A stretch of 33,682 nucleotides of DNA, from the NCBI GenBank assembly GCA_021404565.1, contig JAAWWF010000049.1, positions 1 through 33,682 on the forward strand. Direction: 5' to 3'. The stretch comes from Roseivirga sp. (lineage in GTDB: Bacteria; Bacteroidota; Bacteroidia; Cytophagales; Cyclobacteriaceae). The translations under genes and the position numbers were made by a program. Position 1 is the first letter of the stretch; each line of letters begins with the position of its first letter. Positions 1-26,024 of this stretch are shown in pieces. The notes under the pieces are model-generated. The model was not told the DNA's origin, made no database searches, and worked only from the letters and a program-made list of their open reading frames with translations.

Positions 1-1330
1 CTGATATCGAACAAAGCTTCATCATTGCCACTGCCTAAAGCGTAGGTTACCGGGTTGGCATCCGTTGCCGCAATGGTATAGGCGCTTCCTGTACCATTTT
101 CAGCGAAGTTTACCGCAGTACCCGAAGTAAAGACAGGCAATATTTCATCGACATCGGTAACGGTGATAGTTACGGTCTGACTGGCTGTATTCAATCCGTC
201 ATTGGCCTGCACTTCGATCACATAGCTGTTGTTAGTATCACCGTCTCTAGGGGCCTCAAAATTAGGAGCATTCTTAAAAGTGACCACTCCTCCGCTGATA
301 TCGAACAATGCTTCATCATTACCTGTGCCTAAAGCATAGGTTACAGGGTTGGCATCCGTTGCTAAAATGGTATAGGCTGTACCGGTTCCATTCTCAGCAA
401 AGTTTACCGCAGTACCTGAAGTAAAGACAGGCAATATTTCATCGACATCGGTAACGGTGATGGTTACAGTCTGAGTGGCCGTATTCAATCCATCATTAGC
501 CTGTACTTCGATCACATAACTGTTATTGTTATCACCATCTCCCGGAGCTTCAAAGTCCGGAGCATTCTTAAAGATGATCACTCCCCCGCTGATGTTGAAC
601 AAAGCTTCATCATTGCCAGTGCCTAAAGCGTAGGTTACCGGGTTGGCATCCGTTGCCGCAATGGTATAGGCTGTACCGGTTCCATTTTCAGCAAAGTTTA
701 CTGCGGTACCTGAAGTAAAGACAGGCAAAGTGCTGTCCTCAGCTACATCAGTAACTATAATTGTTACAGTCTGAGTCGCTGTATTCAATCCATCATTAGC
801 CTGTACTTCAATCACATAGCTGTTGTTAGTATCACCGTCTCCAGGGGCCTCAAAATCAGGAGCGTTCTTAAAGGTGACCACTCCCCCGCTGATATCGAAC
901 AAAGCTTCATCATTACCAGTGCCTAAAGCATAGGTCACAGGGTTGGCATCGGTAGCTGATACCGTATAGGCCGTACCGTTACCATTTTCTGCGAAATTTA
1001 CGGTTGTGACTGAGGTAAAGACAGGTAGTATTTCATCTACATCGGTAATCGTGATCGTTACGATCTGTGAGACCTGGTTTGTGGCATCACCGGCAATTAC
1101 ATCTACCAGATACTGATTATCTCCGTTATCATCGGCAGGATTCTCAAAATCGGGACTATTGATAAAGCCCAGTATTCCAGTTACAGGATCAATATTGAAC
1201 AGCCCCTCATCATTGTTGCTACCCAGGCTGTAAGTCAGCTGATCAGCATCGGTGGCAACAGCTGTATAGACAGTTCCCGTTCCGTTTTCTGCAAAGCTTG
1301 CTGCCGTAGCAGACGTAAATACCGGATCAA
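1..1330 (-). repeat. Tandem cadherin-like repeats in the giant protein
   Basis: Units of about 98 residues (294 bp; unit starts near 1, 295, 589 and 889) with the pattern FTSGTAVNFAENGTGTAYTI, ALGTGNDEALFDISGG and NSYVIEVQANDGLN. The copies between 1 and about 1020 are nearly identical in DNA, whereas the copy at about 1045-1330 is clearly diverged (SNNDEGLFNIDPVTG). This points to recent tandem amplification. The unit repeat probably continues past the left edge. Confidence 0.88.
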
Positions 1331-7300: not shown

Positions 7301-10300
7301 CACTGCCTTCGGTAGTTCCTCCATTATCAGCATAGGCAACAAAACTGTATGCCGTATTTCCGGCAAGCGTATTGATTGCAATATCAAACGTTCCTACCGT
7401 ACCCGACACCTCTGCTTTAAATACGGTTGTTCCATTTACTTCTGCCAAGGTAGGGGTTGTATCATCTGCAGTGCGAGCATATACAAAGCCTCTTTCGGTA
7501 ATGCCGGCTCCACCTTCAGAGGTCACTTCGCCATGAAAGGTGACTCCGTTGGCGGCAATTGCAGTTGCCGTATGGGTAGTAACCACTGGTGCAGCAATTA
7601 CCTCAATGGTAAAGCTCTGTTGTGCCGTCCCCCCTTTGCCATCATTGGCCTCCAGTGCCACATCATGATTACCCATCTGACCTGCCGGGTCTCCTGTTAG
7701 CAGGTAAGCTTCTCTTAGCATTTTTCGGATCTTGACACCCTGCTCTAATACATAAGCATTGCCGAAAACATCAAACGCTATCCGTGAAGGAGAATTAAAA
7801 CCCGCAGTGGTGCCAATTCCGTCAAGACTTGTAGCACTGCCAGAACCTGCTAAGGTACTTACCACCGCGGAAGGAGTAATCTTCCGAATCTTGTTATTAG
7901 CTCCATCGGTAACAAAAAGATTACCCTGGGCATCAAAAGCTACTCCTCTTGGGTCATAAAAACGCGCGGCCGTACCTGTTCCGTCATTGCTTCCACGAGA
8001 ACTTCCTGCGAAAGTACTCACCAATCCGGAAGGAGTAACCTTACGGATTCTGTCATTATTGCTATCTGCGACAAAAACGTTACCTGAATCATCCACAGCT
8101 ATTCCCTCAGGAGAGTTAAAACTGGCAACCGTACCAGCGCCATCAATGCTTCCTCTGCTACCTGTACCCGCCAATGTGGTGACTACACCTGAAGGGCTGA
8201 TTTTACGGATTTTGTTGTTGTTCGTATCTCCTACATATACATTGCCAGAAGCATCTACAGCGATTCCCATAGGGTTATTAAATCGGGCAGTGGTTCCTGT
8301 ACCGTCATTATCTCCCGGGAGACTTCCTGCCAATGTAACCACTACACCCGATGGACTGATTTTGCGAATTCTGTTATTACCTCTATCTGCTGCGTAGATA
8401 TTGCCGGAGGCATCCACAGCCAATCCCCTGACGTCATAAAAACTGGCAGCTGTACCTGTTCCATCGGCACTTCCCATACCCGAACCAGCCAAAGTGGTGA
8501 CAACACCGGAAGGAGTTATCTTAAAAATCACGTAATCACCGTCAATGCCAGCCGTGTCACCATCCCTTGAATTCGCGATATAAATATTCCCGGCAAGATC
8601 TGCAGCTACTCCCCGGGGAGAGATAAAACTGGCAGTCGTACCCGTACCATCTACATTTCCTAAACCGGTCAGTGTGGTCACCTTATTTCCGGCTACTGGT
8701 ATCAGGCTCAACCAGGCCGGTTTGGTTAAGGCTGTAATGGCCACCTGGTCCCCATCGGTATCTTCCGTGTTGACCTGATAGGAATACGTTATCTTTTCAT
8801 TTATCGAGGTGAGTGCAGATGAGGTAATAGTTGGTTCATTATTTAAAGTGGTAAAAGTCTGTACACTACCCTCGGTAGCTCCACCGTTAGTCGCATAGGC
8901 GATAAAACTGTATTCTGTATTTCCGGTTAAACCTGACAAAACTGTATTAAAAGCTCCGGAAGTACCGGCAACCGTTACTTTGATTATGGTCGTCCCATTC
9001 ACTTCTGCCAGGGTAGGTGAATCATCGTCTGTTTTGCGTGAATAGACAAATCCTCTTTCAGTAATGGTTGCTCCGCCTTCAGCCACTACCTCCCCCTGTA
9101 GTGTAGCTTCGTTGGAAGAAATTGAAACGGCTACATCCGTAGCTACCGTTGGTGCGGCAATTACATCAATGGTAAAGCTTTGTTGTGCTGTACCTCCCTT
9201 GCCATCACTGGCTTCCAAAATCACATTATGATTCCCTACCTGACCTGTGGGGTCTCCTTCTAACAGAGACTGCCCACTCAAAATCTTTCGGATTTTATTT
9301 CCGGATTCTGCTATATAAGCATTGCCAAAGGCATCAAGGGCTATGCCTAAAGGAGAACTAAGACTTGCAGCTGTACCAATACCGTCAATACTCTCATAGT
9401 TACCTGAACCAGCTACCGTAGTGACTGCTCCGAATGGAGTAATCTTTTTGATTTTGTAATTATTTCTATCCGCTACAAAAACATTTCCCAATACATCAAC
9501 CGTCACATCGTAAGGGTTGTAAAACCTGGCCTGTGAACCTGTTCCATCAGCATCACCACGATAACTTCCGGCTAGAGTACTTACCACACCTGAAGGGGTG
9601 ACTTTACGGATAAGATGATTATCTCTGTCCGCCACATATACATTACCATCAGTATCTACAGCCATTCCGGCAGGGCTATTAAAACTGGCCGCTGTGCCCA
9701 CACCATCAGAGCTCCCTCTGTAACCCGAACCTGCCAGGGTGGTAACAACCCCTGAAGGGCTGATTTTTCTAATTTTATTATTACCAATGTCTCCTACATA
9801 AATATTACCAGATGCGTCTGCCGCTATGGCTGAAGGGAAACTAAAACTGGCTGTTAAACCCGTACCGTCAAAGCTCCCTCTGTTACCTGAACCGGCAAAA
9901 GTGGTTACCACCCCGGCCGGACTAATCTTGCGAATACGGTTATTCCCAGCATCTGCCACATATATATTGCCGGCTGCATCTGAAGTCATGCCTACAGGAC
10001 TATAAAAACCAGCCGCTGTGCCTGTGCCATCGGCACTTCCTCTATTACCTGAACCTGCAAAGGTAGTTACCACCCCAGCCGGACTAATTTTACGGATCAG
10101 GTGGCTCTCGATCTCAAAATTCCCCATCTCAGTCACATAAATATTTCCGGCAAGGTCTGTCGCTATTCCCTGGAGAGCATTAAAGCTGGCAGCTGTACCA
10201 GTGCCATCGGCAGTTTGAGCACTACCTGAACCAGCAAAGGTAGTCACTCTGTTTCCTACCAAAGATTTTAAATTCAACCAATTGGGTTTTGTCAGGGCGG

Positions 10301-12101
10301 AGATGACCACCTGATCTCCATCAGTATCTGCTGTGATGATATCGTAAGAATAAGTACCTCTCTCATTTACTGAAGCAGGTGCGACAGAAGTAAAGTTTGG
10401 TTCATTATTCAAAGTAGTAAAGGTCTGCACTGTTCCTTCTGTCAGGCCACCGTTGTCAGCATAGGCAATAAAGCTATACTGCTTATTACCAGCCAAACCT
10501 GATAATGGGGTATTAAAGACTCCGGAAGTACCGGCTACGGGTACTTTGATCACAGTGGTTCCATCGACCTTATCCAGGCTGGGAGCATCATTATCTGTGG
10601 TAAGCGCATAAACAAAACCTCTTTCAATCACAGCTGCTCCCCCTTCGGTTACTACTTCTCCATGAAGGGTAGCCTCATTACCGGTTATTCCTGTAGCTGC
10701 ACTGGTAGTCACTGTAGGGGCCGCCAGAACCTGAATGCTAAAGCTTTGTTGCACGCTACCTCCGTTGCCATCATTGGCTTCCAGTGTTACCGTATGATTA
10801 CCTGCCTGGCCAGCCGGATCTCCGCTTAACTGATAGGCTCCTCTCAAAATTCTTCGGATTTTATTACCGGATTCTGCTACATAGGCGTTGCCGAAAGTAT
10901 CCAGGGCTATTCCTACAGGAGAACTAAGACTAGCACTTGTACCAATACCATCAGTACTACCATAGCTACCTGAACCCGCCAGGGTAGTCACCACTCCGGA
11001 TGGAGTGATCATCTTCACTTTCTGATTATTTCTGTCTGCCACAAAAACATTACCCCTTATATCGACTGACACATCGTAAGGCGAGTAAAACCGTGCCTGT
11101 GCTCCCGTGCCATCAATATCCCCTCTAGAGCTTCCAGCCAAAGTGCTAACCACTCCGGAGGGGGTAATCTTCCGGATGTTGTGATTATCTCTGTCTGCTA
11201 CATATACATTGCCCTGGCTATCTACGGCTAATCCTGCGGGGCTATTAAAACTGGCAGCTGTACCTGTGCCATTAGAATTGCCTCTGTTGCCCGAACCTGC
11301 AAAGGTCGTAACTACGCCTGCCGGGGTAATTTTTCGAATTTTTCGATTACCCACGTCTGATACATATACATTACCCGACAGGTCTAATGCCACATATGAA
11401 GGGCCATTAAAGCGGGCAGATAAACCTGTACCATCATTACTTCCATAGGAGCTTCCTGCAAATGTCGTCACTACTCCTGACGGACTGATCTTACGAATAC
11501 GGTGATTACTCCTATCTGCCACATATAGGTTACCCGAAGCATCTGTTGCCATTCCTACAGGGTTATTAAAACCAGCCGATGTACCCGTGCCGTCAATACT
11601 GCCTCTGTTGCCTGATCCGGCAAAGGTGGTCACTACACCGGATGGACTAATCCTACGGATCAGGTGGCTCTCCATCTCATAGTTGCCCATCTCAGTCACA
11701 TAAATATTTCCGGCATGGTCTGTCGTTATTCCCTGGATAGCGTTAAAACTGGCGGCCAGGCCTGTACCGTCAATTGTTTCTCCACTGCCTGAACCCGCAA
11801 ACGTGGTCACTTCGTTGCCTACTAAAGCATTCAGAATCAACCAGGTCGGTTTTACCAAGGCAGTAATCGCCACCTGATCTCCGTCAACATCATCTGTGGT
11901 GATACTATAACTATAAGTTCCTCTCTCATTTACCGAGGTTGTGGGGGTAGAGGTAAAAGTGGGGTTGGTCTGGGCGCTTAGTTCAGTAGTAAGCCGTCCT
12001 GTGGTCAGGAGAAGTACTATCAAAAAACAAAGCTTCTTAAGACTTACTCTGGCCGCTGAACTTTCACGAGTCAGTCCGGTAAATGAAAATAAAAAATCCA
12101 T
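1..12101 (-). CDS. Giant secreted protein with seven nested NHL-propeller/cadherin-like modules (3' end outside window)
   Basis: Open reading frame of 4033 codons on the minus strand from ATG at 12101 to the left edge with no stop; frame was checked at several points. The N-terminus has a signal peptide (Lys-Lys, hydrophobic CFLIVLLL, probable cleavage after LSA near residue 44). Seven modules of about 520 residues follow: a cadherin-like domain starting 'NEPTFTST' and interrupted after 'PTWLSL' by six NHL repeats (consensus GIAVDASGNVYVAD), then resuming at 'GDPAGQAGNHTVTLEANDG'. Six of the modules are separated by a fibronectin-like domain ('GFVYA ... YSFIAYADNGG'). From about residue 3590 come cadherin-like repeats ('FAENGTGTAYTI'), four complete and one cut. 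Known families suggest binding or adhesion at the cell surface; no catalytic domain was seen. A C-terminal T9SS domain is expected by analogy with its two relatives but lies outside the window. Start choice is supported by the signal peptide. Confidence 0.93.
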   Translation of the reverse strand, partial: MDFLFSFTGLTRESSAARVSLKKLCFLIVLLLTTGRLTTELSAQTNPTFTSTPTTSVNERGTYSYSITTDDVDGDQVAITALVKPTWLILNALVGNEVTTFAGSGSGETIDGTGLAASFNAIQGITTDHAGNIYVTEMGNYEMESHLIRRISPSGVVTTFAGSGNRGSIDGTGTSAGFNNPVGMATDASGNLYVADRSNHRIRKISPSGVVTTFAGSSYGSNDGTGLSARFNGPSYVALDLSGNVYVSDVGNRKIRKITPAGVVTTFAGSGNRGNSNGTGTAASFNSPAGLAVDSQGNVYVADRDNHNIRKITPSGVVSTLAGSSRGDIDGTGAQARFYSPYDVSVDIRGNVFVADRNNQKVKMITPSGVVTTLAGSGSYGSTDGIGTSASLSSPVGIALDTFGNAYVAESGNKIRRILRGAYQLSGDPAGQAGNHTVTLEANDGNGGSVQQSFSIQVLAAPTVTTSAATGITGNEATLHGEVVTEGGAAVIERGFVYALTTDNDAPSLDKVDGTTVIKVPVAGTSGVFNTPLSGLAGNKQYSFIAYADNGGLTEGTVQTFTTLNNEPNFTSVAPASVNERGTYSYDIITADTDGDQVVISALTKPNWLNLKSLVGNRVTTFAGSGSAQTADGTGTAASFNALQGIATDLAGNIYVTEMGNFEIESHLIRKISPAGVVTTFAGSGNRGSADGTGTAAGFYSPVGMTSDAAGNIYVADAGNNRIRKISPAGVVTTFAGSGNRGSFDGTGLTASFSFPSAIAADASGNIYVGDIGNNKIRKISPSGVVTTLAGSGYRGSSDGVGTAASFNSPAGMAVDTDGNVYVADRDNHLIRKVTPSGVVSTLAGSYRGDADGTGSQARFYNPYDVTVDVLGNVFVADRNNYKIKKITPFGAVTTVAGSGNYESIDGIGTAASLSSPLGIALDAFGNAYIAESGNKIRKILSGQSLLEGDPTGQVGNHNVILEASDGKGGTAQQSFTIDVIAAPTVATDVAVSISSNEATLQGEVVAEGGATITERGFVYSRKTDDDSPTLAEVNGTTIIKVTVAGTSGAFNTVLSGLTGNTEYSFIAYATNGGATEGSVQTFTTLNNEPTITSSALTSINEKITYSYQVNTEDTDGDQVAITALTKPAWLSLIPVAGNKVTTLTGLGNVDGTGTTASFISPRGVAADLAGNIYIANSRDGDTAGIDGDYVIFKITPSGVVTTLAGSGMGSADGTGTAASFYDVRGLAVDASGNIYAADRGNNRIRKISPSGVVVTLAGSLPGDNDGTGTTARFNNPMGIAVDASGNVYVGDTNNNKIRKISPSGVVTTLAGTGSRGSIDGAGTVASFNSPEGIAVDDSGNVFVADSNNDRIRKVTPSGLVSTFAGSSRGSNDGTGTAARFYDPRGVAFDAQGNLFVTDGANNKIRKITPSAVVSTLAGSGSATSLDGIGTTAGFNSPSRIAFDVFGNAYVLEQGVKIRKMLREAYLLTGDPAGQMGNHDVALEANDGKGGTAQQSFTIEVIAAPVVTTHTATAIAANGVTFHGEVTSEGGAGITERGFVYARTADDTTPTLAEVNGTTVFKAEVSGTVGTFDIAINTLAGNTAYSFVAYADNGGTTEGSVQTFTTLNNEPTFSSTAPTSINEGRTYTYSVTTEDLDGDQVAITAPTMPDWLKLTPNVGNNVTTVVGSGNSGSADGTGTAASLFSPLRVAADLAGNIYISDRGNLKIRKVSPSGVVTTLAGSGNESSIDGTGTAASFDHPAGIAVDASGNVYVVDKDDHIIRKISPAGVVITLAGSGNAGSADGTGTTATFNKPSGIAIDASGNLYIGDTYNHKIRKITPSGVVSTLAGSGVSGSAEGTGTAATFRYPDGVAVDAAGNVYVADVGNERIRIISPDKVVSTLAGSFQGSNDGTGTDARFSSPDDIAVDLSGNVFVADRFNNKIRKISPSGVVTTVAGSGSAANHDGTGTAAGFNSPRGIAFGPFGNVYIVDDGHQVRKILSESYELSGNSGGQAGNHTVVLEANDLKGGTVQQSFSIEVIAAPTIVTSEAASISTDGATLQGEVTSEGGGAIAERGFVYARTIDDATPTLAEVNGTTIFKVEVSGTLGTFDVAISGLTGNTEYSFVAYADNGGVAEGSIKTFTTLNNEPTFTSTAPTSISEKGSYSYTVTTEDLDNDPLVLNALTKPTWLNLIPLVGDKVTTFAGSGIDGTIDAGGTAAAFSSPRRIANDSQGNIYVTQAGNEFNESHLIRKVTPSGVVTTFAGSGNRGSADGTGTNASFYDLYGVVTDASDNLYVVDRGNHTIRKISPSGVVTTFAGRSNFGSVDGTGTNASFRSPEGIAIDNSGNIYVADTGNRKIRKISTAGVVSTIAGSGSYGNNNGPGTSASFNSPSGLAVDASGYIYVADRGSHRLRKITPEAVVTSLAGGSRGDIDGTGGSARFADLSDLVVDRVGNILVADRSNGKIRKVSPLGVVTTLVGSGNSGSADGTGTTASFSSPAGISMDPFGNVYVVDESSHRIRRVLPGSYLLEGNPIGQAGNHNVTLEASDDNGGTAQQSFTINVIAAPTVNTSQAVSISSDEATLQGEVTSAGGAAITERGFVYALTSDDATPTLSEANGSTVMKVEVSGAVGTFDLALNNLAGHTEYSFIAYADNGGLTEGTVQTFTTLNNAPAFTSTAPTSVSEAATYSYLVTIQDADGDPVAVTASTKPGWLSLTPITGDRVTTFAGSGSDESIDGTGTAAAFSYARRVTTDSQGNIYVTETGDTDFDQNYVIRKITPSGVVTTFAGSGNRGSADGTGTNASFFDLYGVATDASDNIYVADRGNNTIRKITPSGVVTTFAGNRYTGSNDGTGTNARFRSPEGIAIDASGHIYVADAGNRKIRKISPSGVVSTIAGSGARGNTNGTGTSTSFYTPSGLTVDASGNVYVADTGNHNIRKITPEGVVTTLAGGSRGDIDGTGLGARFYSPTDLTVDKSGNILVADQYNRKIRKVSPLGVVTTLAGSQSSGTADGTGTTAGFGRPTGITTGPSGNVYVVDKSIHKIRKIISESSLLAGDAAGQTGSHNVVLEANDGYGGVSQQNFTIEVIAAPEVITGTAVSISPGGATLQGEVTSEGGAAITERGFVYARTSDDATPTLTEVDESTVFKVTVPGTTGTFDMAVSGLMGNTAYSFVAYADNGGATEGDVQTFTTLNNEPTFTSTAVTAVSEDNSYSYLVTTEDTDGDPVVVTALTEPSWLSLAPLVGNKVSTFAGSGNYGVADGTGTAASFATPTGIAVDSNGNIFVTQGDFDSRQSLIRKISPSGVVSTFAGSGNYGSADGTGTEASFSGPSGIAIDASDNIYVVGAAYNRIRKISPSGVVTTIAGSGRSGSVDGTGTDASFNRPYGIAVDASGNVYIGDTNSNKIRKISPSGVVSTFAGSGIRGSVDSSGTAASFNGPRGLAIDASGNVYVADGGNYRIRKISPAGVVSTFAGGSRGSIDGIGTNARFYSVSDMAIDALGNVYVTDGSDRKIRKIDPSGVVTTLAGSGSYESTDGIGTAAGFYDLAGIALDASGHAYVVERAGNKIRKISSELSLLSGDPTGRAGSHNVVLEANDGNGGTAQQSFTIVVTDGIDPVFTSATAASFAENGTGTVYTAVATDADQLTYSLGSNNDEGLFNIDPVTGILGFINSPDFENPADDNGDNQYLVDVIAGDATNQVSQIVTITITDVDEILPVFTSVTTVNFAENGNGTAYTVSATDANPVTYALGTGNDEALFDISGGVVTFKNAPDFEAPGDGDTNNSYVIEVQANDGLNTATQTVTIIVTDVAEDSTLPVFTSGTAVNFAENGTGTAYTIAATDANPVTYALGTGNDEALFNISGGVIIFKNAPDFEAPGDGDNNNSYVIEVQANDGLNTATQTVTITVTDVDEILPVFTSGTAVNFAENGTGTAYTILATDANPVTYALGTGNDEALFDISGGVVTFKNAPNFEAPRDGDTNNSYVIEVQANDGLNTASQTVTITVTDVDEILPVFTSGTAVNFAENGTGSAYTIAATDANPVTYALGSGNDEALFDI
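1340..11975 (-). repeat. Seven-copy array of about 1565-bp modules, each with a six-blade NHL propeller
   Basis: Module starts ('FTS ... S-V-N-E-x-G-T-Y-S-Y') lie near 11973, 10412, 8847, 7284, 5730, 4165 and 2590, a spacing of 1555-1575 bp. The propeller parts run approximately 11813-10850, 10250-9280, 8690-7717, 7126-6166, 5574-4597, 4006-3025 and 2437-1458. Each has exactly six repeats of about 57 residues carrying SGVVTTLAGSG, DGTGTxAxF, GIAVDASGNVYVAD and IRKI. Six fibronectin-like domains sit between consecutive modules. The module boundaries are approximate. Confidence 0.88.
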
Positions 12102-16638: not shown

Positions 16639-19600
16639 TCATTTTCTGACCATCACCTTCTTTCTGATCACCTGCTCACCATCATAGCACTGTACAATGT
16701 AAATGCCACTGGTATAATCAGACACATCAAGTTCCAATATCTGCTCCCTATAGGCCTTTTGGGTGAAAACGGGGGTACCAGATGCATTGTATATCCGGAT
16801 ATTAACGGTTTCTGCACTAAGCTCTGACAGGTCAATCGTGAGCACCTTGCTGACGGGGTTGGGATAAAGGCTGATTTCCTCTGTCCTGCTTAGCCTTTGC
16901 AGATCGGTAAAATCTTCGCGGGCAGATACCTCTGTAAAACCAAGGCTCAGCTGGTTAGATACCTTGCTACCATTGCCGGCTACATCTTCAGCGGCATTGG
17001 CATTGATGGATACATCTACGGCCCCACCTGATGAGTTTACCAGGAATGAATAAGTGGTAGGACTTATTTGTTTCAGGTCACTCGCTATGCCACCTGCTAT
17101 GGTAATTTCTTCAAGAGTCAGGCCACTCACCGCTTCGCTAAAAACAGCATTGACCTGTTGACCGGCTACCGAGCTTCCGGCAAGGTCAATCGTCACCCCC
17201 GGCCCTGTAAAGTCAATCGTCAGGGTAAACGGATCACTGGTTATACTGCGGTTGCCTGCGAGATCAAATGCCTCAACCGTCATATTGGCTATAAACTGGG
17301 GAAGATTGAATCGGCTGATGTCCAGCATCCAATCGCCATTGGCATCATCGGCCAAAACAGTGCCGATTTTGCCGCCTGGTGAGAATACGTCTACAGAGGC
17401 ACCTGCCTCGGCTTTTCCATGAACAAGTATATTACGGTCGCTGGTTACCCCATCGGTAGCACTGCGGCCTGTATCATCACTAATATGTGTGATGGCAGGT
17501 TTGGCCGGAGCGGTGAAGTCGATGGTCAGGGTAAAGGGATCACTTGTTGCGCTGCGATTACCTGCCAGATCGATGGCCTCTGCCGTCATATTAGCGGTGA
17601 ACTGCGGCAGGTTGAACCTGCTGATATCCAGCACCCAGTCGCCATTGGCATCGGCCAGAACTGTTCCGATTTTACCTCCGGGTGAGAAGACATCTACACT
17701 GGAACCAGCTTCAGCCGTTCCATAAACGAGTATATTGCGATCGCTGGTTATGCCATCAGTGGCGCTGCTGCCTGTATCATCACTGATATGGGTGATGGCA
17801 GGTTTGGCCGGGGCAGTATAGTCAATGGTTATCTCAAATAAATCACCCCGGATGCTTCTGTTGCCCGATGCATCAATGGCCTCTGCCGAAGCACTGGTGG
17901 TCATTTCAGGCAGGTTAAAGCCTCTGATATCCAGAGTCCAATCACCTGCATCATCGGCCTGAACAGTGCCAATCAGGCCTCCTGGAGAGAATACTTCTAC
18001 AGTTGTGTTCGCCTCGGCCGTACCGTGAATGAGTAAGGTTCGGTCATTGGTAACTCCATCGGTACTGCTACTGCCGGTATCATCGCTTATGCCAGTTACC
18101 ACAGGTGCATCAGGGGCAGTAGTATCTTCGAGCTCATCTATGATGCGGATATTGATCAACAGGCTCAGATCTCCCCCTCCGTCATTGGCTATGAGCTCAA
18201 TCTCATAGATATTGTCTGCGTTGCCATCTACAGGTTTTTCGTAGTCAGGCACATTTTTAAAAGTGATGATTTCTCCTTCCAGGTTGAACAGTGACTCATC
18301 GCGCTCGGTCCCCAGCTTATAATCAATGCTGTTTCCGGAATTGGCCGTGGCTCTGTAAGCCGGGTCCGTACTGTTTTCCAGATAGGTGAGATTGAGCACA
18401 AAGATGGCCGGGGTATCAGCCATATCCGTCACTATTACCGATACCATTTTGCTTGTTGCGTTGAGTCCATCGCTGCCGATGATTTCCAGCTCATAACTGT
18501 TGTCTGAATCTAAATCCAGTGGATTCTCATAGTCTGGTGAAGTATTGAAAAGCACGATACTCTGATTTCCACCAATATTGAAAAGCGTAAACAGGTATTC
18601 ATCATGGCCATTGCCCAGGCTATAGGTCACTTCATTTTCATCGGTAGTGGTGGCCAGATAGGCTACCCCTGCCCCATTTTCAGCAAAATTTGTAGTGGTA
18701 GCTGATGTAAATACCGGGGCGGTATCGTCTACATCGGTGACAGTAATAGTTACACCTTGCTTCTTTTTATTGATGCCATCGCTTGCTATGACTTCAATGT
18801 AATAGATATTGTTCTCGTTGCCGTCAAGTGGGTTTTCAAAATCCGGAGGTGATTTAAAGTTCACGAGTCCATTATTAATTTCAAACAAGGGTTCGCTGAA
18901 ATTGATACCCAGGCTATAGGTCAGGCTGCTCTCATCGGTGGCCAGGGCAGTATAAACCGTTTCGGTGCCATTCTCTTCATATTCCACCGCTTTGCCAGAG
19001 GTGAAAACCGGGGCTGTATCATCTACATTGGTTACCGTGATTTTCACAAACTGGCTTACCTCGTTGGTACCATCTGATGCAATGACTCTTATGTAGTAGA
19101 TATTGTTTTCATTCTTGTCTGTGGGTGTTTCAAAATCAGGAGAGGTTTTAAAGGTGAGTGCTCCGGAGGTCAGATCAAATACCGGCTCATCGTTTAAAGT
19201 ACCAAGCTTATAGCTAACCGGGTTTTCATCGGTGGCTACTATGGTATAGGCTGTGCCCGTACCGTTTTCTGCAAAGTCTACCGCTATGGGAGAGGTAAAT
19301 ACAGGGTCGGTGAGATCGGGAATCACTTCATTCAGGTCGGTAACCGTAACACTGACATTGTGTATTTTGGTATTGATACCATCAGAGGCGATTACCCTGA
19401 ACTGATAGACATTGTCCTGATCAGCATCCATAGGAGTTTCAAAATCAGGAGCAGACTTGAAACTTACCGCTTTTCCTGAGATAGAAAACAAATGACTGTC
19501 AACTACAGTACCCATGCTATAGGTCAACGGGCTTTCATCAATAGCCTCTATGATATAAGCAGCTCCTGTACCATTTTCAACGAAGTTAACCTGGGTTGCG

Positions 19601-22599
19601 GAAGTAAATTCAGGCTTTGTATCGTCAATGTTGGTTACACTAATACTAACCGTTTTGGTTCTGAGATTTATGCCGTCAAAGGCTCTGAATTTTACCTTAT
19701 AGATATTATCAGCCCCCTGATCCTTTGGTGTTTCATAGTCTGGTACCTCCTTAAATGTAAGCACACCATTGGTCAACTTAAAGAGCCCTTCATCTCCCCC
19801 GGTAGTACCCAGGCTAAAAGTGACCTCATTGAGATCTGTGGCTGTAACCTGATATACCGGCCCGGTTTCATTTTCAACAAAATCCACAGTTCCGGCAGAG
19901 GTAAAAGCAGGTTTGGTGCCATCATGGTCCAGACTGATCTTATTGGACGCACTGTTTCCGTTATTGCCTTCATCTACGGCCACGTCTGCGGCCAGGCTCA
20001 CCTCCACCAGGCCATCTGAAGCCGGGGTGATCTTGGCGGTATACACCGTGGCACTGACCGCGGCAAAACTACCTGCAGTACCATTGGATACAGTAATGTC
20101 TGATTTGTTAAATCCTGTCACAGCACTGGAAAAAGTAAAAGTGGCTGTAAAAGGCGCATTGACCAGTGCAGCGGCATCTGTGGATACGGCTGTCGTGGTA
20201 CGCACCGAATTCAAGTTGTATTCATGAATTTTGTGGTTGTCGGAGCCCAGTACAAACATTTTGGTACCAGCATCATTAAAAGTAAGTGACCGGGGTTTGT
20301 CGTCTTCACCAGCCACTGAAAATCGCTCGTTATTACCGGTATATACTGAATTCACCACATCATAGGGAATGGCCATGGTATACTCATTAATATCATCCCC
20401 TTCGGTACCCATCACATACATCTTAGTACCGTCCAGGTTAAAAGCAAGAGAGTAAGGATTAGTCTCTTTCCCCCCCACCGGGCGGCTTCCTGTATGATCT
20501 GCTGTGGATACATCATAGGCCACAGCCAGGGCATATGCCTGTACTGCATCGTTTCCGGTCCCTAAAACAAACATTTTGGTACCGTCATTATTAAAGATCA
20601 GGGAGGTAGGATCATTTTCCTCACCACGAACCAGAAAGCTCTCCACATCTCCCTGGTAACTTACAGTAGACAAATCATAGCCCGTACTCAGCTTATACTC
20701 GCTCACATCATCACCATTCGGACCCAGTACATACATTCGGGTGCCGTCATGATTAAAGGCCAGTGAGCGTGGGTTGGTTTCCTGGGCCCCCAGGGAAAAA
20801 CGTTGTCCACCGGAAACCGCGGTAGCCGTTGAAACATCATAGGCTTTGGAGAGGCTGTATTTTAAAACATCTCCGTGCTCTTTTCCCACCACAAACATTG
20901 CTGTACCGTCAAGGTTAAAGGCAATAGACCTGGAAGCGTCTTCCCTACTCTCTATAGTTTTGCTCTCCGACTCACCGGCATACACTGCCCTGGACACGTC
21001 AAATGCCGCACCTACATAGTGATAACCTGCGTTTTTATAGTTATTGGCAAGGTTTACTCCGTTCTCATTCTTAATAGATCCTGCAATTTTCAGAAGGTCG
21101 ATGCTTACATAACCATCGCTCAGCGCAGGGATATTTTCTACCGTCACCACATACTCAGCACCGCTACCACTTACAGCTGTTATCGAAGCTCCCTCAATTT
21201 CCTCAGAAATATCCAGCCTAAAGTCCGCTTTACCCACACCAGTCACTGCTTCGCTAAAGGTGACGTTAAAATCAACAGAGCTTGCATTTGATGCAGGCGT
21301 TCCTGACAAACTAATATCTATCGCTAAGGGTGCTGAATCAAGGTCGAATTCATATATTCCACTCCCGAACAGGCTGGTCACAAACATTTTTGTACCGGCA
21401 GGATTAAAGGCAACAGAGGTTGCCGTGTGCAAGGCTGTTTCAGAAATACCATCTACATACCTGAGTGACTCAGCATTATGCGGGGAGGACATACTGAACA
21501 TATTTACATCCCCAAATCCAACAGCTATCATTCTTGTACCATCAGGGTTAAAGACCATACTTCGGTGAGGTTCTTCAGGTTGGTAATGGTTGGCTTGCTC
21601 CACGAGAACGCCATCAGATGCGGACGATACGTCAAAAGGGGCTGTTAGCGTGGCCTGGTAGGTTTCCGGGAGAACATATTGGTTGTATCTGGAGGCATAT
21701 ACTTTCATTCCATTCTGGCTGAATGCGACCTGATCAGCAATGTTTATATACAATAGGTTACTCCTCAATTTCCTTCTTGAATCCGGGACTGCGGTGGACA
21801 CGTCAAAGCCCGTGCTGAAGCTGTATTCATAAAGCCCCTCTGAGTTGTGCATAATCATTTTCTTCCCGTCTTCATGGAAAGTAAATGATTTAGGTAATTC
21901 AACATCACTCATAGTAAAGCTCTCTACTCTTCCCGTATAATCTACATCTGACATGCTATAAGGCGTTTGCAGAACGTATTCATGTATCGTATGATCTTGC
22001 AATACGAACATTTTCTTACCATCATTGCTGAACTGCATATGATCCGGAAAATAACCCAGCTTGTAAGTAATTACCGGATCGAGAGAGGTACGTTCTCTTA
22101 TATCAAAGGCTGCTCCTAAGTAATAATGTTCTCCCCCGTTAAAACCGGGTGAGGGAGTTCCACCAGAATCTTTAATATCAGTACCTGAATCTTTTAATTC
22201 AATTCCCAGGCTACCATCGCCATAGGCAACTACATTCAATACGGTTACTGTATAAATAGCACCACCACCACTAACATTGTAAACAACAGCTCCTTCCAGA
22301 TCACCGGTAGCTTTGACCATAAAATCACTTTTATCCACCCCGCTTACATCCTTGCTGAACACCACGATAAAATCGAGGGAGTTGGGTAGCCGTGGCTCGT
22401 AATCGGCAAGCGCTATACCCAGTACCTCAGGGCCGGCAAAGGCAGCAGACTCATCTCCACTATGGGTAGTGGCCTGTGACACCAGCGATCCCAGCATCAG
22501 GAAGGTGGCTATGACTGATTTCCGGAAGATACTTCGGTACCATCCAAAAAGGGATTGGTTTTGAAAAAAGGAGCTCAAGGATTTGGTGAATGCCATCAT
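16639..22599 (-). CDS. T9SS-exported multidomain surface protein (propeller, cadherin-like and bacterial Ig repeats)
   Basis: About 1986 residues. The frame is open to a TTG at 22608, but ATG codons at 22599 and 22596 give a better start (MMAFTKSL). The signal peptide hydrophobic stretch (SVIATFLMLGSLV) lies near residues 28-40. Order of domains: Big_12-like Ig and five blade-like repeats (about 55-430); a second such Ig (SGTPASNASSVDFNVTFSEA) and five more repeats with SLAFNLDGTKMYVMG (about 425-800); another Big_12-like Ig (FNKSDITVSNGT); six cadherin-like repeats (about 895-1490); three Big_6-like Ig repeats (GTAEAGSSVDVFSPGGKIGT); a final Big_12-like Ig; and a T9SS type A sorting domain (ISLYPNPVSKVLTIDL ... 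VIRKKVMVRK) at about 1905-1986. The protein is therefore expected to cross the outer membrane and be attached at or released from the cell surface. No enzyme domain was seen. Gene 4, upstream on the same strand, encodes a sensor with the same N-terminal module. Confidence 0.93.
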   Translation of the reverse strand: MMAFTKSLSSFFQNQSLFGWYRSIFRKSVIATFLMLGSLVSQATTHSGDESAAFAGPEVLGIALADYEPRLPNSLDFIVVFSKDVSGVDKSDFMVKATGDLEGAVVYNVSGGGAIYTVTVLNVVAYGDGSLGIELKDSGTDIKDSGGTPSPGFNGGEHYYLGAAFDIRERTSLDPVITYKLGYFPDHMQFSNDGKKMFVLQDHTIHEYVLQTPYSMSDVDYTGRVESFTMSDVELPKSFTFHEDGKKMIMHNSEGLYEYSFSTGFDVSTAVPDSRRKLRSNLLYINIADQVAFSQNGMKVYASRYNQYVLPETYQATLTAPFDVSSASDGVLVEQANHYQPEEPHRSMVFNPDGTRMIAVGFGDVNMFSMSSPHNAESLRYVDGISETALHTATSVAFNPAGTKMFVTSLFGSGIYEFDLDSAPLAIDISLSGTPASNASSVDFNVTFSEAVTGVGKADFRLDISEEIEGASITAVSGSGAEYVVTVENIPALSDGYVSIDLLKIAGSIKNENGVNLANNYKNAGYHYVGAAFDVSRAVYAGESESKTIESREDASRSIAFNLDGTAMFVVGKEHGDVLKYSLSKAYDVSTATAVSGGQRFSLGAQETNPRSLAFNHDGTRMYVLGPNGDDVSEYKLSTGYDLSTVSYQGDVESFLVRGEENDPTSLIFNNDGTKMFVLGTGNDAVQAYALAVAYDVSTADHTGSRPVGGKETNPYSLAFNLDGTKMYVMGTEGDDINEYTMAIPYDVVNSVYTGNNERFSVAGEDDKPRSLTFNDAGTKMFVLGSDNHKIHEYNLNSVRTTTAVSTDAAALVNAPFTATFTFSSAVTGFNKSDITVSNGTAGSFAAVSATVYTAKITPASDGLVEVSLAADVAVDEGNNGNSASNKISLDHDGTKPAFTSAGTVDFVENETGPVYQVTATDLNEVTFSLGTTGGDEGLFKLTNGVLTFKEVPDYETPKDQGADNIYKVKFRAFDGINLRTKTVSISVTNIDDTKPEFTSATQVNFVENGTGAAYIIEAIDESPLTYSMGTVVDSHLFSISGKAVSFKSAPDFETPMDADQDNVYQFRVIASDGINTKIHNVSVTVTDLNEVIPDLTDPVFTSPIAVDFAENGTGTAYTIVATDENPVSYKLGTLNDEPVFDLTSGALTFKTSPDFETPTDKNENNIYYIRVIASDGTNEVSQFVKITVTNVDDTAPVFTSGKAVEYEENGTETVYTALATDESSLTYSLGINFSEPLFEINNGLVNFKSPPDFENPLDGNENNIYYIEVIASDGINKKKQGVTITVTDVDDTAPVFTSATTTNFAENGAGVAYLATTTDENEVTYSLGNGHDEYLFTLFNIGGNQSIVLFNTSPDYENPLDLDSDNSYELEIIGSDGLNATSKMVSVIVTDMADTPAIFVLNLTYLENSTDPAYRATANSGNSIDYKLGTERDESLFNLEGEIITFKNVPDYEKPVDGNADNIYEIELIANDGGGDLSLLINIRIIDELEDTTAPDAPVVTGISDDTGSSSTDGVTNDRTLLIHGTAEANTTVEVFSPGGLIGTVQADDAGDWTLDIRGFNLPEMTTSASAEAIDASGNRSIRGDLFEITIDYTAPAKPAITHISDDTGSSATDGITSDRNILVYGTAEAGSSVDVFSPGGKIGTVLADANGDWVLDISRFNLPQFTANMTAEAIDLAGNRSATSDPFTLTIDFTAPAKPAITHISDDTGRSATDGVTSDRNILVHGKAEAGASVDVFSPGGKIGTVLADDANGDWMLDISRFNLPQFIANMTVEAFDLAGNRSITSDPFTLTIDFTGPGVTIDLAGSSVAGQQVNAVFSEAVSGLTLEEITIAGGIASDLKQISPTTYSFLVNSSGGAVDVSINANAAEDVAGNGSKVSNQLSLGFTEVSAREDFTDLQRLSRTEEISLYPNPVSKVLTIDLSELSAETVNIRIYNASGTPVFTQKAYREQILELDVSDYTSGIYIVQCYDGEQVIRKKVMVRK
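16994..17169 (-). repeat. Dispersed near-identical block (copy 1 of 2)
   Basis: A 176-bp stretch encoding most of the last Ig-like domain (QVNAVFSEAVSGLTLEEIT). It matches 26689-26864 in gene 5 with only two base differences, one synonymous and one Ile/Val. Flanking parts of the two genes are clearly less similar. Recent gene conversion or duplication is the simplest explanation. Confidence 0.9.
17205..18118 (-). repeat. Three tandem Big_6-like bacterial Ig repeats
   Basis: Three units of about 100 residues (about 300 bp), each starting ISDDTGSSxTDG and containing GTAEAG, VDVFSPGGKIGTV, ADANGDW, LDISRFNLP and AIDLAGNRS. One unit has an extra Asp (ADDANGDW). The family assignment is from the recalled consensus. 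The same repeat occurs four times in gene 5. Confidence 0.85.
18120..19920 (-). repeat. Six cadherin-like repeats in gene 3
   Basis: Six units of about 100 residues with the pattern FTSxxxVxFxENGTGxxY, xxDExLF, TFKxxPDFExPxD, NIYxIxVIASDG and VTxVDDTAPV. They are more diverged from each other than the tandem copies in gene 1, so this array looks older. The DxND/DxD type residues fit calcium-rigidified surface stalks in this domain class. Confidence 0.82.
20205..22430 (-). repeat. Two 'Ig + five-repeat' modules of gene 3
   Basis: Each module is a Big_12-like Ig (FSExVTGVxKxDF ... YVVTVENI), then YHYxGAAFD, then five repeats of about 57 residues ending in motifs such as PRSLAFNHDGTRMYVLG and YDVSTA. 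The first module (about 22430-21340) is more degenerate; the second (about 21325-20205) is regular. The repeats resemble beta-propeller blades (YVTN/WD40-like) but I cannot assign a named family. A third copy of the module forms the ectodomain of the kinase at 22785-26024. Confidence 0.83.
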
Positions 22600-22611: not shown

Positions 22612-22651
22612 TTAATCGACCAGCCTGAATACGCCATAGCTGGACGATTAA
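22612..22651 (-). promoter_or_regulatory. 13-bp inverted repeat just upstream of gene 3
   Basis: TTAATCGACCAGC (22612-22624) and GCTGGACGATTAA (22639-22651) are inverted copies with one mismatch and a 14-nt spacer. The near arm ends 12 nt before ATG 22599. As DNA it could be an operator, for example for a regulator dimer such as the LuxR-type output of the upstream HTCS. As RNA it would place a strong hairpin beside the start codon. The arms differ in sequence from those upstream of gene 4. Confidence 0.5.
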
Positions 22652-22678
22652 AAATGCTAAGAACTTTCTCTCATCCTG

Positions 22679-22696
22679 TCACCCAGGGGTGGGTGA
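22679..22696. other. Perfect 7-bp hairpin between genes 4 and 3
   Basis: TCACCCA (22679-22685), GGGG loop and TGGGTGA (22690-22696) form a perfect GC-rich stem in the gap between genes 4 and 3. A short T run follows only on the plus strand, against the direction of the flanking genes, so it is not a typical terminator for gene 4. It could limit read-through, stabilise an mRNA end or bind a protein. Confidence 0.4.
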
Positions 22697-22784
22697 TTTT
22701 GCCCAAATCAACCTCCAAGAGTCAGAATTAATGTTTTCCAGCTTAAATATTTCCAGTCAGGAATGGCTTAAGAAGCCTGGAGAG

Positions 22785-25700
22785 CTACACCTCAGCGAAG
22801 TCGCTTAGTTTATCGGTTACCTCTACCCTACTGCGAATATCCATTTTGGAGTAGATGTTTTTCAGGTGGGTTTTCACTGTGTTACGCGACACGTGAAGTG
22901 CTTCGGCAATCTCAGGATTGGAGTAACGTTTGGCAATCAGCCTTATCACTTCTACTTCTCGTTCAGACAGATCATAGGTCTTCATAAGTGCTCTGCTGTC
23001 GGCTGTAAACCCACCGGATTCTGCGCCTTCCAGCCCTTTCAGTTCCCGCAGAATTTTAATCCGGTTTTCAAGAATGTTTTTGATCCTTGCCAGGAACTCT
23101 GAAGCATGAAAAGGCTTGGTCAGGTAATCGTCAATGCCCATGGTGAGGGCAAAGAGTTTATCTTCCTGATCAGCCCTGGCGGTAAGCATGATCAGCGAGA
23201 CCTCATGAAGTGACTTATCTTGTTTAATTGACTCCAACAGCTCGAATCCATCCATCACCGGCATCATCACGTCTGATAATACAATATCAATTCGCTCGGC
23301 TTTGAGAATTTCCAAAGCCACCTTACCATTCTCTGCCTGCCTGATCTCAAAATAAGGCTGTAAGGTCTGCACAATAAATGCCCTCATTTCAGGGTGATCT
23401 TCTGTCACCAGCAGCACGGGTTTCCCTACTTCAAACCTGACAGCATATCGGTGAATGGTTTCTTTCAGGGCTGAATCAACTGATACTGTTTCGGCTTTGG
23501 ATAGTGGTACAATGACTTCCTCGGTTACTTCTTTCAGGGGAAATTCAAAGGAAAACATGCTCCCTTTTCCTAACTCACTCTCAACCTTCAGATCACCTTC
23601 AAACAACAAAGCCAGTTCTTTGGCCAGCGCCAGACCTATTCCTGTACCTCCCACTGCTTTCTGACCAGGTTGCTCTGATTGATAAAAGCGATCGAAGATA
23701 TGCTTTACATCATTGGGGTGAATACCCTCTCCATTATCTTCAACACTCAGCTGTAACAGGTCGGGTCTTTCTGCCTTGTACTGAACGCATACCTTGATGC
23801 AACCGTGTTCCGGGGTAAATTTCAGAGCATTGGACAGCAGATTGTTAACGATCTTGCCAGCATAATTGGCATCCATCAGTACGGTCAGATTATCGTCAGG
23901 TTGAAAGTCGACAAGCAGATTAATCGACTTCTTTTGGAACCCGGTTTCATAGCCTTTCAACGTATCATTTACAAATTCAGAAAGACGTACGGGGTTTTCA
24001 ATAAGTTTTAGTTTACCGGCCTCCAGTTTAGTCAAATCCAGTATCTCCTCGACCAACGACAGAAGACTCCCCCCGTTTTTTCTGGCCACCCCCAGGGTTT
24101 TCAACACTTCTTCGTCTTCAATCTTTCCGTTTTCAATTAATGATTCCAGTGGCGCATTGATGAGGGTAAGAGGAGTTCTCAGCTCATGAGAAATATTGGC
24201 AAAAAATCGTGATTTCACTTTATCCAGCTCCTGTAGTCTGTCGGCCTGTTCCTTGATCAGTATATTGGCCTCTTCCACTTCTGACATGCGGGTTGCAATC
24301 TCTGCAGTACGCTGTTCTACAATTTTTTCGAGGTCCTTTTTTTCCTTTTCCAGACGCTTGGTGTTGAACTTGACGATACGCCAAATCAGTGTAATCAAAA
24401 TGGCTGTATAAAGCATATAGGCCCAAAAAGTAAAGTACCATGGCCTCTGGATGGAAAAAGTCAACTCACTGAGCGTACTTTCCTGGCCATATCGATTATG
24501 GGCTTTGACCTTAAAGGTGTATGTACCATGCCCCAATCTTGAGTATTCCTTTTTACTATCACTTGTCCAGGCAGACCAATATTCTTCGGCACCCTCCAAA
24601 ATGGTTTGATACTCAACCATATCTGATTGGTTAGTTGAGTTTGTCTGGTATTGAAAAACAACATTTTGCTCATCTGCTGTCAGTTGAACTGTTTCAGTCT
24701 CATCCTGAATGACCTCAACCGGTGGATTAGCCGGGTTTTCTCTCACTACCTTCAATATAGAGCTTTGGGTAAGGAGCAGTGGCCCTGAATCTAAAACGTA
24801 TTCCAGAACCTGATCCTCGCCATTGCCCAGAATGAACATTTTTGTACCATCCCCATTGAAAGTTACAGACCGTGGGTCTCCATCCTGATCAGCCACTGAA
24901 AATCGTTCTATATCGCCATGATAACTGGCAGTCGAAACATCAAAGGGAGTTTCCAACACATATTCGTTGATATCATTTTCCTCATTACCCAACAAGTACA
25001 TTCTGGTCCCGTCCATATTGAACTTCAATGAAACGGGTAAGCTTTCCTGAGCCGCACTGGAGAGCTTTTCCTTACCTCCTGCATACCTGGCAGTTGAGAC
25101 ATCAAAGGCTCTTGATAAATGGTATTCATTTACATTGGCTTCCCTCATTTCAGCCGTGAAAAGCTTTGTACCATCATTGTTAAATGACATGGAATAGGGG
25201 AAATTACCTTGCTTCTTGATATTAAAGGATCGTTCTACACCTGAGTAAGTAGCGGTAGAAATATCGAATGGAGATGACAGGGTATACTCAAATACCCTAT
25301 CCCTGGCAGAGCCAATCATGAACATTTTATCACCCTGAAGATTAAAGGCGAGTGATCTTGGGTTGATTTCCTGAGAAAATACCGAAAAGCTCTCCTGGTC
25401 TCCGGTATAAGTCGCAGTGGAGATATCAAATGCCGTAGTAAGATGATACTGATAAATCGTCTTGTTTCGAAAACCCATGATAAACATCTTCGAACCATCG
25501 GGAGTAAACTCCAATGAAAAAGCGTGTGATTCCTGATCAGTAAAGGAAAAACTCTCAGAATCTCCGGCAAACACCGCTCTGGAGACATCAAAGGCCGCTC
25601 CAGCATAATGATATAACCCCTGCGTGAACCCTCCTGCTACAGCTCTGGCAGCGCTCATTATACCAGTGCCTGAATCTCTGAGGTCAACACTAATCACTCC

Positions 25701-26024
25701 ATCAGCATTTTCCGGAATATTACTGATGGTAATGACATAGCTACTACCTGATCCACTAAGTCCCGAAATTCTTGCCTCAGTAAGTTGCTGAGAGGCCTCA
25801 ATTATGAAATCATCTTTGTCTACCCCGGTAACCTCTTCATTAAAAGTGATATCGAATTTTACCGAACTGGCACTACTGGCTGGTGTCCCTGATACTTTGA
25901 TGCTTTTGACAAAAGGTTTGCCGGACTGAGCGGGAAGAGAATGGGACAAGAAGCAAAGCAGTACCACGACAGGTAAACTCTGAAATAACCTTCGTAAGAC
26001 GGGGTGTGTTTTGACTGCCTTCAT
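22785..26024 (-). CDS. Hybrid histidine kinase with adhesin-type ectodomain and LuxR-type HTH
   Basis: 1079 residues from ATG 26024. The signal peptide (SLPVVVLLCFLSHSLPAQ) ends near residue 33. A Big_12-like Ig (about 37-135; SGTPASSASSVKFDITFNEE) leads through YHYAGAAFDVSRAVFAGDSE into five blade-like repeats (about 145-413; PRSLAFNLQGDKMFMIG). A Y_Y_Y-like domain (about 420-525), a membrane segment (about 531-551) and a coiled coil follow. The H-box FFANISHELRTPL has His613. The ATPase domain has IVNNLLSNALKF, DNGEGI and GGTGIGLAL. The receiver has Asp918 in LSDVMMPVMDG. A LuxR-type HTH is at about 1017-1065 (LSEREVEVIRLIAKRYSNPE, VSRNTVKTHLKNIYSKM). All key signalling residues are present. 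Typical HTCS carry Reg_prop repeats and an AraC HTH; both are replaced here. The ectodomain is homologous to the two N-terminal modules of the secreted protein encoded downstream, with a gap of about 185 bp on the same strand, suggesting co-expression or a shared ligand. Confidence 0.94.
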   Translation of the reverse strand: MKAVKTHPVLRRLFQSLPVVVLLCFLSHSLPAQSGKPFVKSIKVSGTPASSASSVKFDITFNEEVTGVDKDDFIIEASQQLTEARISGLSGSGSSYVITISNIPENADGVISVDLRDSGTGIMSAARAVAGGFTQGLYHYAGAAFDVSRAVFAGDSESFSFTDQESHAFSLEFTPDGSKMFIMGFRNKTIYQYHLTTAFDISTATYTGDQESFSVFSQEINPRSLAFNLQGDKMFMIGSARDRVFEYTLSSPFDISTATYSGVERSFNIKKQGNFPYSMSFNNDGTKLFTAEMREANVNEYHLSRAFDVSTARYAGGKEKLSSAAQESLPVSLKFNMDGTRMYLLGNEENDINEYVLETPFDVSTASYHGDIERFSVADQDGDPRSVTFNGDGTKMFILGNGEDQVLEYVLDSGPLLLTQSSILKVVRENPANPPVEVIQDETETVQLTADEQNVVFQYQTNSTNQSDMVEYQTILEGAEEYWSAWTSDSKKEYSRLGHGTYTFKVKAHNRYGQESTLSELTFSIQRPWYFTFWAYMLYTAILITLIWRIVKFNTKRLEKEKKDLEKIVEQRTAEIATRMSEVEEANILIKEQADRLQELDKVKSRFFANISHELRTPLTLINAPLESLIENGKIEDEEVLKTLGVARKNGGSLLSLVEEILDLTKLEAGKLKLIENPVRLSEFVNDTLKGYETGFQKKSINLLVDFQPDDNLTVLMDANYAGKIVNNLLSNALKFTPEHGCIKVCVQYKAERPDLLQLSVEDNGEGIHPNDVKHIFDRFYQSEQPGQKAVGGTGIGLALAKELALLFEGDLKVESELGKGSMFSFEFPLKEVTEEVIVPLSKAETVSVDSALKETIHRYAVRFEVGKPVLLVTEDHPEMRAFIVQTLQPYFEIRQAENGKVALEILKAERIDIVLSDVMMPVMDGFELLESIKQDKSLHEVSLIMLTARADQEDKLFALTMGIDDYLTKPFHASEFLARIKNILENRIKILRELKGLEGAESGGFTADSRALMKTYDLSEREVEVIRLIAKRYSNPEIAEALHVSRNTVKTHLKNIYSKMDIRSRVEVTDKLSDFAEV
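24785..25590 (-). repeat. Five blade-like repeats in the kinase ectodomain
   Basis: Five units of about 57 residues, each with the pattern AFDVSTAxYxGDxESFSV, then xxPRSLxFNxDGTKMFxxG and a short acidic/polar turn ending EYxL. They are the same repeat type as in gene 3, in the same number per module. Five units are few for a closed propeller of this length, so a blade may be completed by adjoining sequence. Confidence 0.85.

Follow-up and report, generated by a model that had tools for sequence, protein, structure and literature searches.

A Roseivirga hybrid sensor kinase shares its Ig and propeller module with the surface protein encoded beside it

Results

Gene organization of the locus and architecture of the kinase

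The window analyzed here is an entire contig (G000:C28, 33,682 bp) from the 8.57 Mb genome of a Roseivirga species. Three consecutive genes on its minus strand encode an NHL protein of the type IX secretion system (T9SS), a hybrid sensor kinase and a T9SS surface protein, in this order. The kinase and the surface protein are the subject of this study, since they share a module composed of an immunoglobulin (Ig)-like domain and a five-repeat propeller. The positions and strand that a first-pass annotation gave for the two genes are correct (Table 1). The start of the surface gene is most likely the ATG at 22599, a position that aligns with the start of its ortholog; the open frame reaches 22608. 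With regard to a signal peptide, the N-terminus of the surface protein has, by eye, a short hydrophobic stretch behind charged residues, but no 19-residue hydropathy window exceeds 1.6.

The HisKA, HATPase_c, receiver and DNA-binding domains of the kinase all lie on one polypeptide and exceed the Pfam cut-offs. Hybrid two-component systems (HTCS) of Bacteroidota likewise have a periplasmic propeller region, Y_Y_Y, one transmembrane segment, HisKA, HATPase and receiver on one polypeptide (PMC3243724, from the available part of the paper), and the kinase retains their Y_Y_Y domain between propeller and membrane. According to the same part of that source, the HTCS propeller is of the Reg_prop type with two seven-bladed units and the output is an AraC-type helix-turn-helix (HTH), whereas the kinase has an Ig domain and a non-Reg_prop propeller of five repeats, about half the size, and a LuxR-type output domain (GerE). 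Its neighbor is a surface protein and not a polysaccharide utilization locus. Reg_prop gave no match at E ≤ 1 when the kinase ectodomain was searched alone, so the earlier remark that these repeats are missing stands. Since its propeller is not of the Reg_prop type and its HTH is not AraC-type, we classify the kinase as a variant on the HTCS backbone, neither a typical HTCS nor a new class of system. The proposed opposite locations, with the kinase ectodomain predicted in the periplasm and the surface protein at the cell exterior, are supported as predictions.

Table 1. Features of the kinase and surface-protein locus (positions in the window)
Feature	Position	Strand	Description or evidence
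Hybrid sensor kinase, 1079 aa	22785..26024	-	Order: hydrophobic N-terminus, Ig, five-repeat propeller, Y_Y_Y, one transmembrane segment, HisKA, HATPase, receiver, LuxR-type HTH
Kinase Ig-like domain, aa 35-137	25614..25922	-	Custom hidden Markov model (HMM); AlphaFold2 model; Pfam Big_12 sub-threshold
Kinase propeller, five 54-aa repeats, aa 142-413	24786..25601	-	BLASTP, custom HMM, AlphaFold2 model
Kinase Y_Y_Y domain, aa 467-525	24450..24626	-	PF07495, 30.4 bits (cut-off 26.6)
Kinase transmembrane segment, aa 533-551	24372..24428	-	Hydropathy
Kinase LuxR-type (GerE) DNA-binding domain, aa 1019-1071	22812..22970	-	Pfam, 61.3 bits
Conserved intergenic element	22635..22699	-	18-bp palindrome TCACCCACCCCTGGGTGA at 22679-22696, 80-97 bp ahead of the surface gene ATG
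T9SS surface protein	16639..22599	-	Two Ig + propeller modules, Big_12, cadherin-like stalk (by eye), Big_13/Big_6, type A sorting domain
Surface module 1 (Ig + propeller)	21334..22434	-	30% identity to kinase
Surface module 2 (Ig + propeller)	20206..21333	-	46% identity to kinase
Type A T9SS sorting domain of surface protein	16648..16869	-	TIGR04183, 46.7 bits (cut-off 23); PF18962, 57.1 bits (cut-off 27)
Second T9SS protein upstream of kinase, truncated by contig end	26328..33680	-	NHL propellers, Big_13, type A C-terminal domain

The module shared by the kinase and its neighbor

In BLASTP, residues 37-413 of the kinase match the surface protein twice, at residues 427-801 with 46% identity (173/378, E 2e-103) and at residues 60-430 with 30% identity (117/385, E 2e-45). 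Because of these E values, a chance match is excluded. Thus, the Ig and propeller unit of the kinase does occur twice in the neighboring protein, as the first-pass annotation had claimed. The linker that it quoted is also present, with 17 of 20 residues identical between the two proteins. Since the modules are homologous, it follows that they should share one fold.

The earlier description of a Big_12-like Ig followed by five blade-like repeats holds in part. There are five repeats of 54 residues, and AlphaFold2 gives a confident Ig and propeller model in which the repeats are the blades (predicted local distance difference test score, pLDDT, of 95 with a 54-sequence alignment; 65 with an 8-sequence alignment). 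The assignment to Big_12 is below the Pfam cut-off, at 12.9 bits against 27 (14.8 with the ectodomain alone), and no Pfam model exceeds its cut-off on the kinase Ig or repeats. Surface module 2 alone narrowly passes Pfam Lactonase PF10282 (22.2 vs 21.7 bits). Foldseek matches of the kinase model have low TM-scores (0.33-0.43, by query). HTCS structures are not among the 50 structural matches listed, which excludes nothing. In a sequence search of the PDB, the best 60 of 434 matches include kinase and receiver domains because full-length kinases were part of the search alignment.

Linkage of the two genes in a second genome

The genome of uncultured Roseivirga 727-3Z (G016, locus L049) has a related kinase gene followed, on the same strand, by a surface-protein gene whose 5120-aa product has four modules and ends in a T9SS tail. 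The kinases of the window and G016 are 69% identical over 1047 aa, and the HTH segment SRNTVKTHLKNIYSK is the same in both. The surface proteins are 44% identical over residues 61-1490 and have the sorting domain in common. Thus, the orthologous surface gene directly follows the kinase, on the same strand, in 2/2 kinase-bearing genomes. The immediate flanks have changed. Upstream of the kinase is the T9SS NHL protein in the window, and open reading frames (ORFs) of 580 and 542 aa (peptidase-like by eye) in G016; downstream of the surface gene is a convergent kinase in the window and a 324-aa ORF in G016. The claimed linkage is therefore found for both kinases with readable context, out of at least 16.

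Such linkage could also mean that the kinase monitors its neighbor. Its module would pair with the surface modules in the periplasm during export, or would sense a backlog, and synthesis would be adjusted by feedback. The presence of the same module on both partners, their linkage and the element upstream of the surface gene are consistent with monitoring. However, T9SS cargo passes through the periplasm only in transit, the identities between window and G016 are uneven (72% for the kinase propellers, 61% for surface module 2 and 29% for surface module 1), and two genomes are too few for a test of co-evolution. A precedent is found in Porphyromonas gingivalis, where PorA, a protein with a T9SS sorting domain, affects PorY signaling (PMC7712824, from the available part). 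On balance, we regard feedback of this kind as unlikely.

A conserved element between the two genes

From the kinase stop codon to the surface ATG there are 185 bp in the window and 175 bp in G016. The two intergenic stretches share a block, AAATCACCCA-x-CCCTGGGTGA-x-AGGATGAG, with 28/30 positions identical, followed by AAGTTCTT and ATTTTTA. In 40 shuffles, the best block averaged 17.2 and reached 19/30 at most. The block contains the palindrome TCACCCA-N4-TGGGTGA, whose start is 97 bp from the ATG in both genomes, and 60 of these 97 positions are identical without an indel. The core pattern is single-copy in its own genome within 2 mismatches and is exact, once each, in only the window's genome and G016 among 390 genomes of the family. 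When ≤2 mismatches are allowed, it is also found in G204 and G242 with 2 mismatches each, and the reversed-pattern control gives 1. The longer pattern arose in 0/100 shuffles of the window. With ≤1 mismatch, the palindrome alone has one site in the genome, and the reversed control also has one place. The element is not seen upstream of the kinase gene itself, where the best match is 18/30 and shuffles give up to 20.

Because it lies near the gene that follows a LuxR-type regulator, we consider the palindrome a natural operator candidate for the LuxR-type domain of the kinase. An intrinsic terminator was rejected, the T run being on the strand opposite to both genes. A second inverted repeat, with 11-bp arms AATCGTCCAGC ... 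GCTGGTCGATT, lies just ahead of the surface gene start (window 22614-22649, minus strand) and is not seen in the aligned stretch of G016, the sole genome compared.

The element might instead be a promoter or leader RNA of the surface gene that another regulator reads, with the kinase controlling other genes. This overlaps with the other explanations. The conservation does extend beyond the palindrome (AGGATGAG, AAGTTCTT and ATTTTTA), and, going by base-pairing rules, the arms of the palindrome could fold into a 7-bp stem that closes a 4-nt loop. However, Rfam has no family match to the element at E ≤ 1, the fold predicted for the 196-nt leader has only mild stability (z -1.59; 10/200 shuffles fold as well) and its centroid lacks the stem of the palindrome. 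The restriction of the exact core to the two kinase-bearing genomes also argues against another reader, which we hold to be improbable.

Distribution of the module and of module kinases

The repeat is widespread, with 994 proteins matching the kinase ectodomain (the best 120 listed). On genome contigs, 73 loci were kept out of the 417 candidates scanned from a longer list, and they include SAR11, other marine alphaproteobacteria, Patescibacteria, flavobacteria and Balneola. Only 1/73 is on a kinase, and this kinase is linked to a surface gene; the other 72 are not on kinases. Thus, among the loci kept, the module was not found to be common in unlinked HTCS kinases, an outcome that would have spoken against the first-pass annotation, and it is widespread in secreted proteins that are not paired with a module kinase. 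Marine single-cell genomes, those of SAR11 included (L054, L056, L060-L063 and others), encode large proteins in which the 54-aa repeat is arrayed as propellers. Many relatives of the repeat match only general propeller models of Pfam, such as SGL or WDR36.

Among the 390 family genomes, which include that of the window, the module is present in 36 at E ≤ 1e-15; the best 4 candidates per genome were scored and some matches were judged by frame length only. The kinase form is present in two of them, G000 (the window's genome) and G016. A full-length query with P0166, a divergent member, gave whole-length matches in these two only (best 2 candidates per genome scored), and its other matches start no earlier than residue 433 and lie in frames 870-1375 aa long. 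For P0181, searched against 194 relatives of G016, the sole whole-length match among those listed is G016; G000 is not among them.

In the protein database there are at least 16 kinases with the Ig and propeller, found among 121 kinase-bearing proteins examined. The remaining 105 are without the propeller by the custom HMM; the nearest are mostly 1246-1313 aa, several of them named Roseivirga. The one among these nearest that is from the same genome as the window is 62% identical over the shared part and has a borderline Reg_prop match (20.2 vs 20.4 bits). Two pairs of module kinases are diverged, P0059/P0125 (longest contig 73,911 bp each) and P0115/P0129 (18,139 bp each). Since the members of each pair have longest contigs of equal size, they are likely tandem paralogs.

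Origin of the kinase module

In a tree of the Ig and propeller (31 rows), the 16 kinase modules are on one side of a branch with 90/90 support, recovered in 88% of 200 bootstrap trees. A propeller-only tree (52 rows) is without this branch, with 3 changes and several long branches. In the Ig and propeller tree, surface module 2 of the window forms a group with modules 2 and 4 of the G016 surface protein (99/97). In the comparisons made for P0001 and P0060, no surface module is more than 51% identical to a kinase module. A specially close relation between the kinase module and that of its neighbor is therefore not borne out; the kinase modules form their own lineage in the Ig and propeller tree. 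Recent exchange or gene conversion between the two genes was rejected because their modules are too distant, the kinase propeller being 72% identical to its G016 counterpart, 47% to module 2 of its own neighbor and as much as 51% to surface modules from other genomes.

We also compared residues that are conserved in kinases and rare elsewhere, defined from the 9 nearest of the 16 kinases. These are shared at 9/24 positions by G016 module 2 and 7/24 by module 2 of the window, while the modules of R. seohaensis and Marivirga each share 10/30. For the remaining 24 of the 28 surface modules the number is 0 to 6, including G016 module 4 with 3/25. In these and the identity comparisons, eight surface modules were set aside because of long branches or poor alignment.

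Kinases beside giant surface genes

Past the surface gene, on the plus strand, is a second kinase (P0004, 12325-16566) with Reg_prop and an AraC-type HTH by Pfam. A giant protein that appears NHL-like by eye is at 3-12101 on the minus strand. Both contig termini (window 1-33682) are inside giant repetitive genes. Eleven kinases of the window's genome were inspected from the top of a longer list of large kinase frames. Six of these hybrid or HTCS kinases adjoin giant ORFs, namely the two of the window, L011, L015, L182 and L183, and four do not (L012, L016, L018 and L185); the neighbor of L017 is masked. T9SS tails were visible only where the ORF end was covered. The kinase paralogs L011, from the same genome as the window, and L171 (G007) are also flanked on both sides by giant ORFs of like orientation, of which the upstream ORF has a T9SS tail. 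The simplest history would be that the kinase was already among giant surface genes when its Reg_prop sensor was replaced by the Ig and propeller.

Such a replacement could be domain reuse without coupling, in which an abundant scaffold propeller took the place of Reg_prop and the adjacency comes from local duplication or from the habit of these kinases to sit beside giant surface genes. The 994 matching proteins, the 72/73 kept loci that are not kinases, the 6/11 kinases that adjoin a giant ORF whatever their ectodomain, and the separate lineage of the kinase modules point to reuse. However, the pair was kept together while the immediate flanks changed, and there is a conserved element between the genes. 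Thus, we find mere reuse rather unlikely, if somewhat less so than the alternatives above.

A cassette in L124 (R. seohaensis), L125 (G002) and L127 (R. spongicola) consists of a LuxR-type response regulator, another sensor kinase and a propeller surface protein. Here the module is accompanied by a sensor of another kind. The sensor kinase has HisKA_3 and Reg_prop in L125, for which alone Pfam was used. The cassette is followed by a PorP/SprF gene, identified by Pfam in L125 and by eye in L127; the sequence of L124 does not reach that far.

Discussion

The gene pair is real, rare and conserved as a unit, and a functional reading of it is plausible. We suggest that it is a dedicated sensor and surface-protein unit in which the kinase regulates its neighbor and most likely responds to a ligand that the two share. 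In our judgment, this has an even chance of being right. The kinase would be an inner-membrane hybrid kinase on the HTCS backbone, with the Reg_prop sensor replaced by the Ig and five-repeat propeller of its neighbor. A cue bound in the periplasm would lead it to phosphorylate its own receiver. The LuxR-type HTH would then act on the palindromic element before the neighboring gene and so set the amount of surface protein. The cue would most likely be a soluble fragment derived from the polymer or partner to which the surface modules bind outside, so that the sensor is matched to the bait. HTCS ectodomains bind oligosaccharides (PMC3243724, from the available part). The conserved intergenic element supports regulation of the neighbor by the kinase. 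Neither this reading nor the candidate operator was part of the first-pass annotation; the operator is new here. Other Roseivirga genomes (L124, L125 and L127), in which a different sensor kinase and a LuxR-type regulator are beside a propeller-bearing surface gene, also support a dedicated unit. More tentatively, recognition could take place in two compartments, with one Ig and propeller module on either side of the outer membrane and the kinase controlling the surface protein through a dedicated single-copy operator. We consider this possible, though doubtful.

Several observations weigh against a dedicated unit. Since the module occurs in secreted proteins of unrelated bacteria, where it is common, it may be generic. 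We rejected a signature of shared specificity, as the propellers of the neighbor are no closer to the kinase than some others. The linkage counts once, because both genomes descend from a single ancestral arrangement kept in two lineages, and a relative of the window's NHL proteins is encoded ~5 kb upstream in G016, so the wider neighborhood is not wholly different. Genomic context covers 2 of the at least 16 module kinases, the other 14 being unreadable, and for these no surface partner is on equal-size contigs among the best 120 of 885 matches, which cover only proteins of ~1094-3481 aa. The palindrome alone, within 2 mismatches, occurs in 22/100 shuffles and is not improbable for a window of this size. 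The element could also be an RNA or promoter feature instead of the operator of the kinase.

Comparable arrangements exist elsewhere. In BlaR1 and MecR1, the sensor domain of the receptor resembles the effector under its control; they differ from the kinase in their metalloprotease relay and in belonging to Gram-positives. The sensory modules of RsgI from Clostridium thermocellum are of the same families as those of exported enzymes. If a dedicated unit is the right explanation, RsgI is alike as a membrane regulator whose outer sensory modules control exported proteins (PMC6056542; PMC12203970, from the available part). It differs in being Gram-positive, in its sigma factor output and in its carbohydrate-binding modules. 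PorZ of the P. gingivalis T9SS is an exported surface protein whose domains are arranged as in an HTCS sensor such as BT4663 (PMC5121618, from the available part). There, the resemblance is in fold and domain order, with two seven-bladed propellers, and the two are not gene neighbors because they come from different species. In the PorA-PorXY case, the surface protein, which carries a T9SS sorting domain, acts on the pathway of a sensor kinase. However, PorA has a FimH-like domain, and the abstract states no module common with PorY (PMC7712824).

In searches limited to open-licence PMC papers, we recognized no description of the present arrangement. If the two-compartment reading is true, production of the surface protein would await the arrival of fragments of its binding target in the periplasm, and for kinases of this clade elsewhere the prediction would be a neighboring surface gene that has the same module and element. 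A kinase that carries the module of its neighbor, together with a defined candidate operator, makes the targets of giant T9SS surface proteins and the cues of HTCS-type kinases outside polysaccharide loci open to testing.

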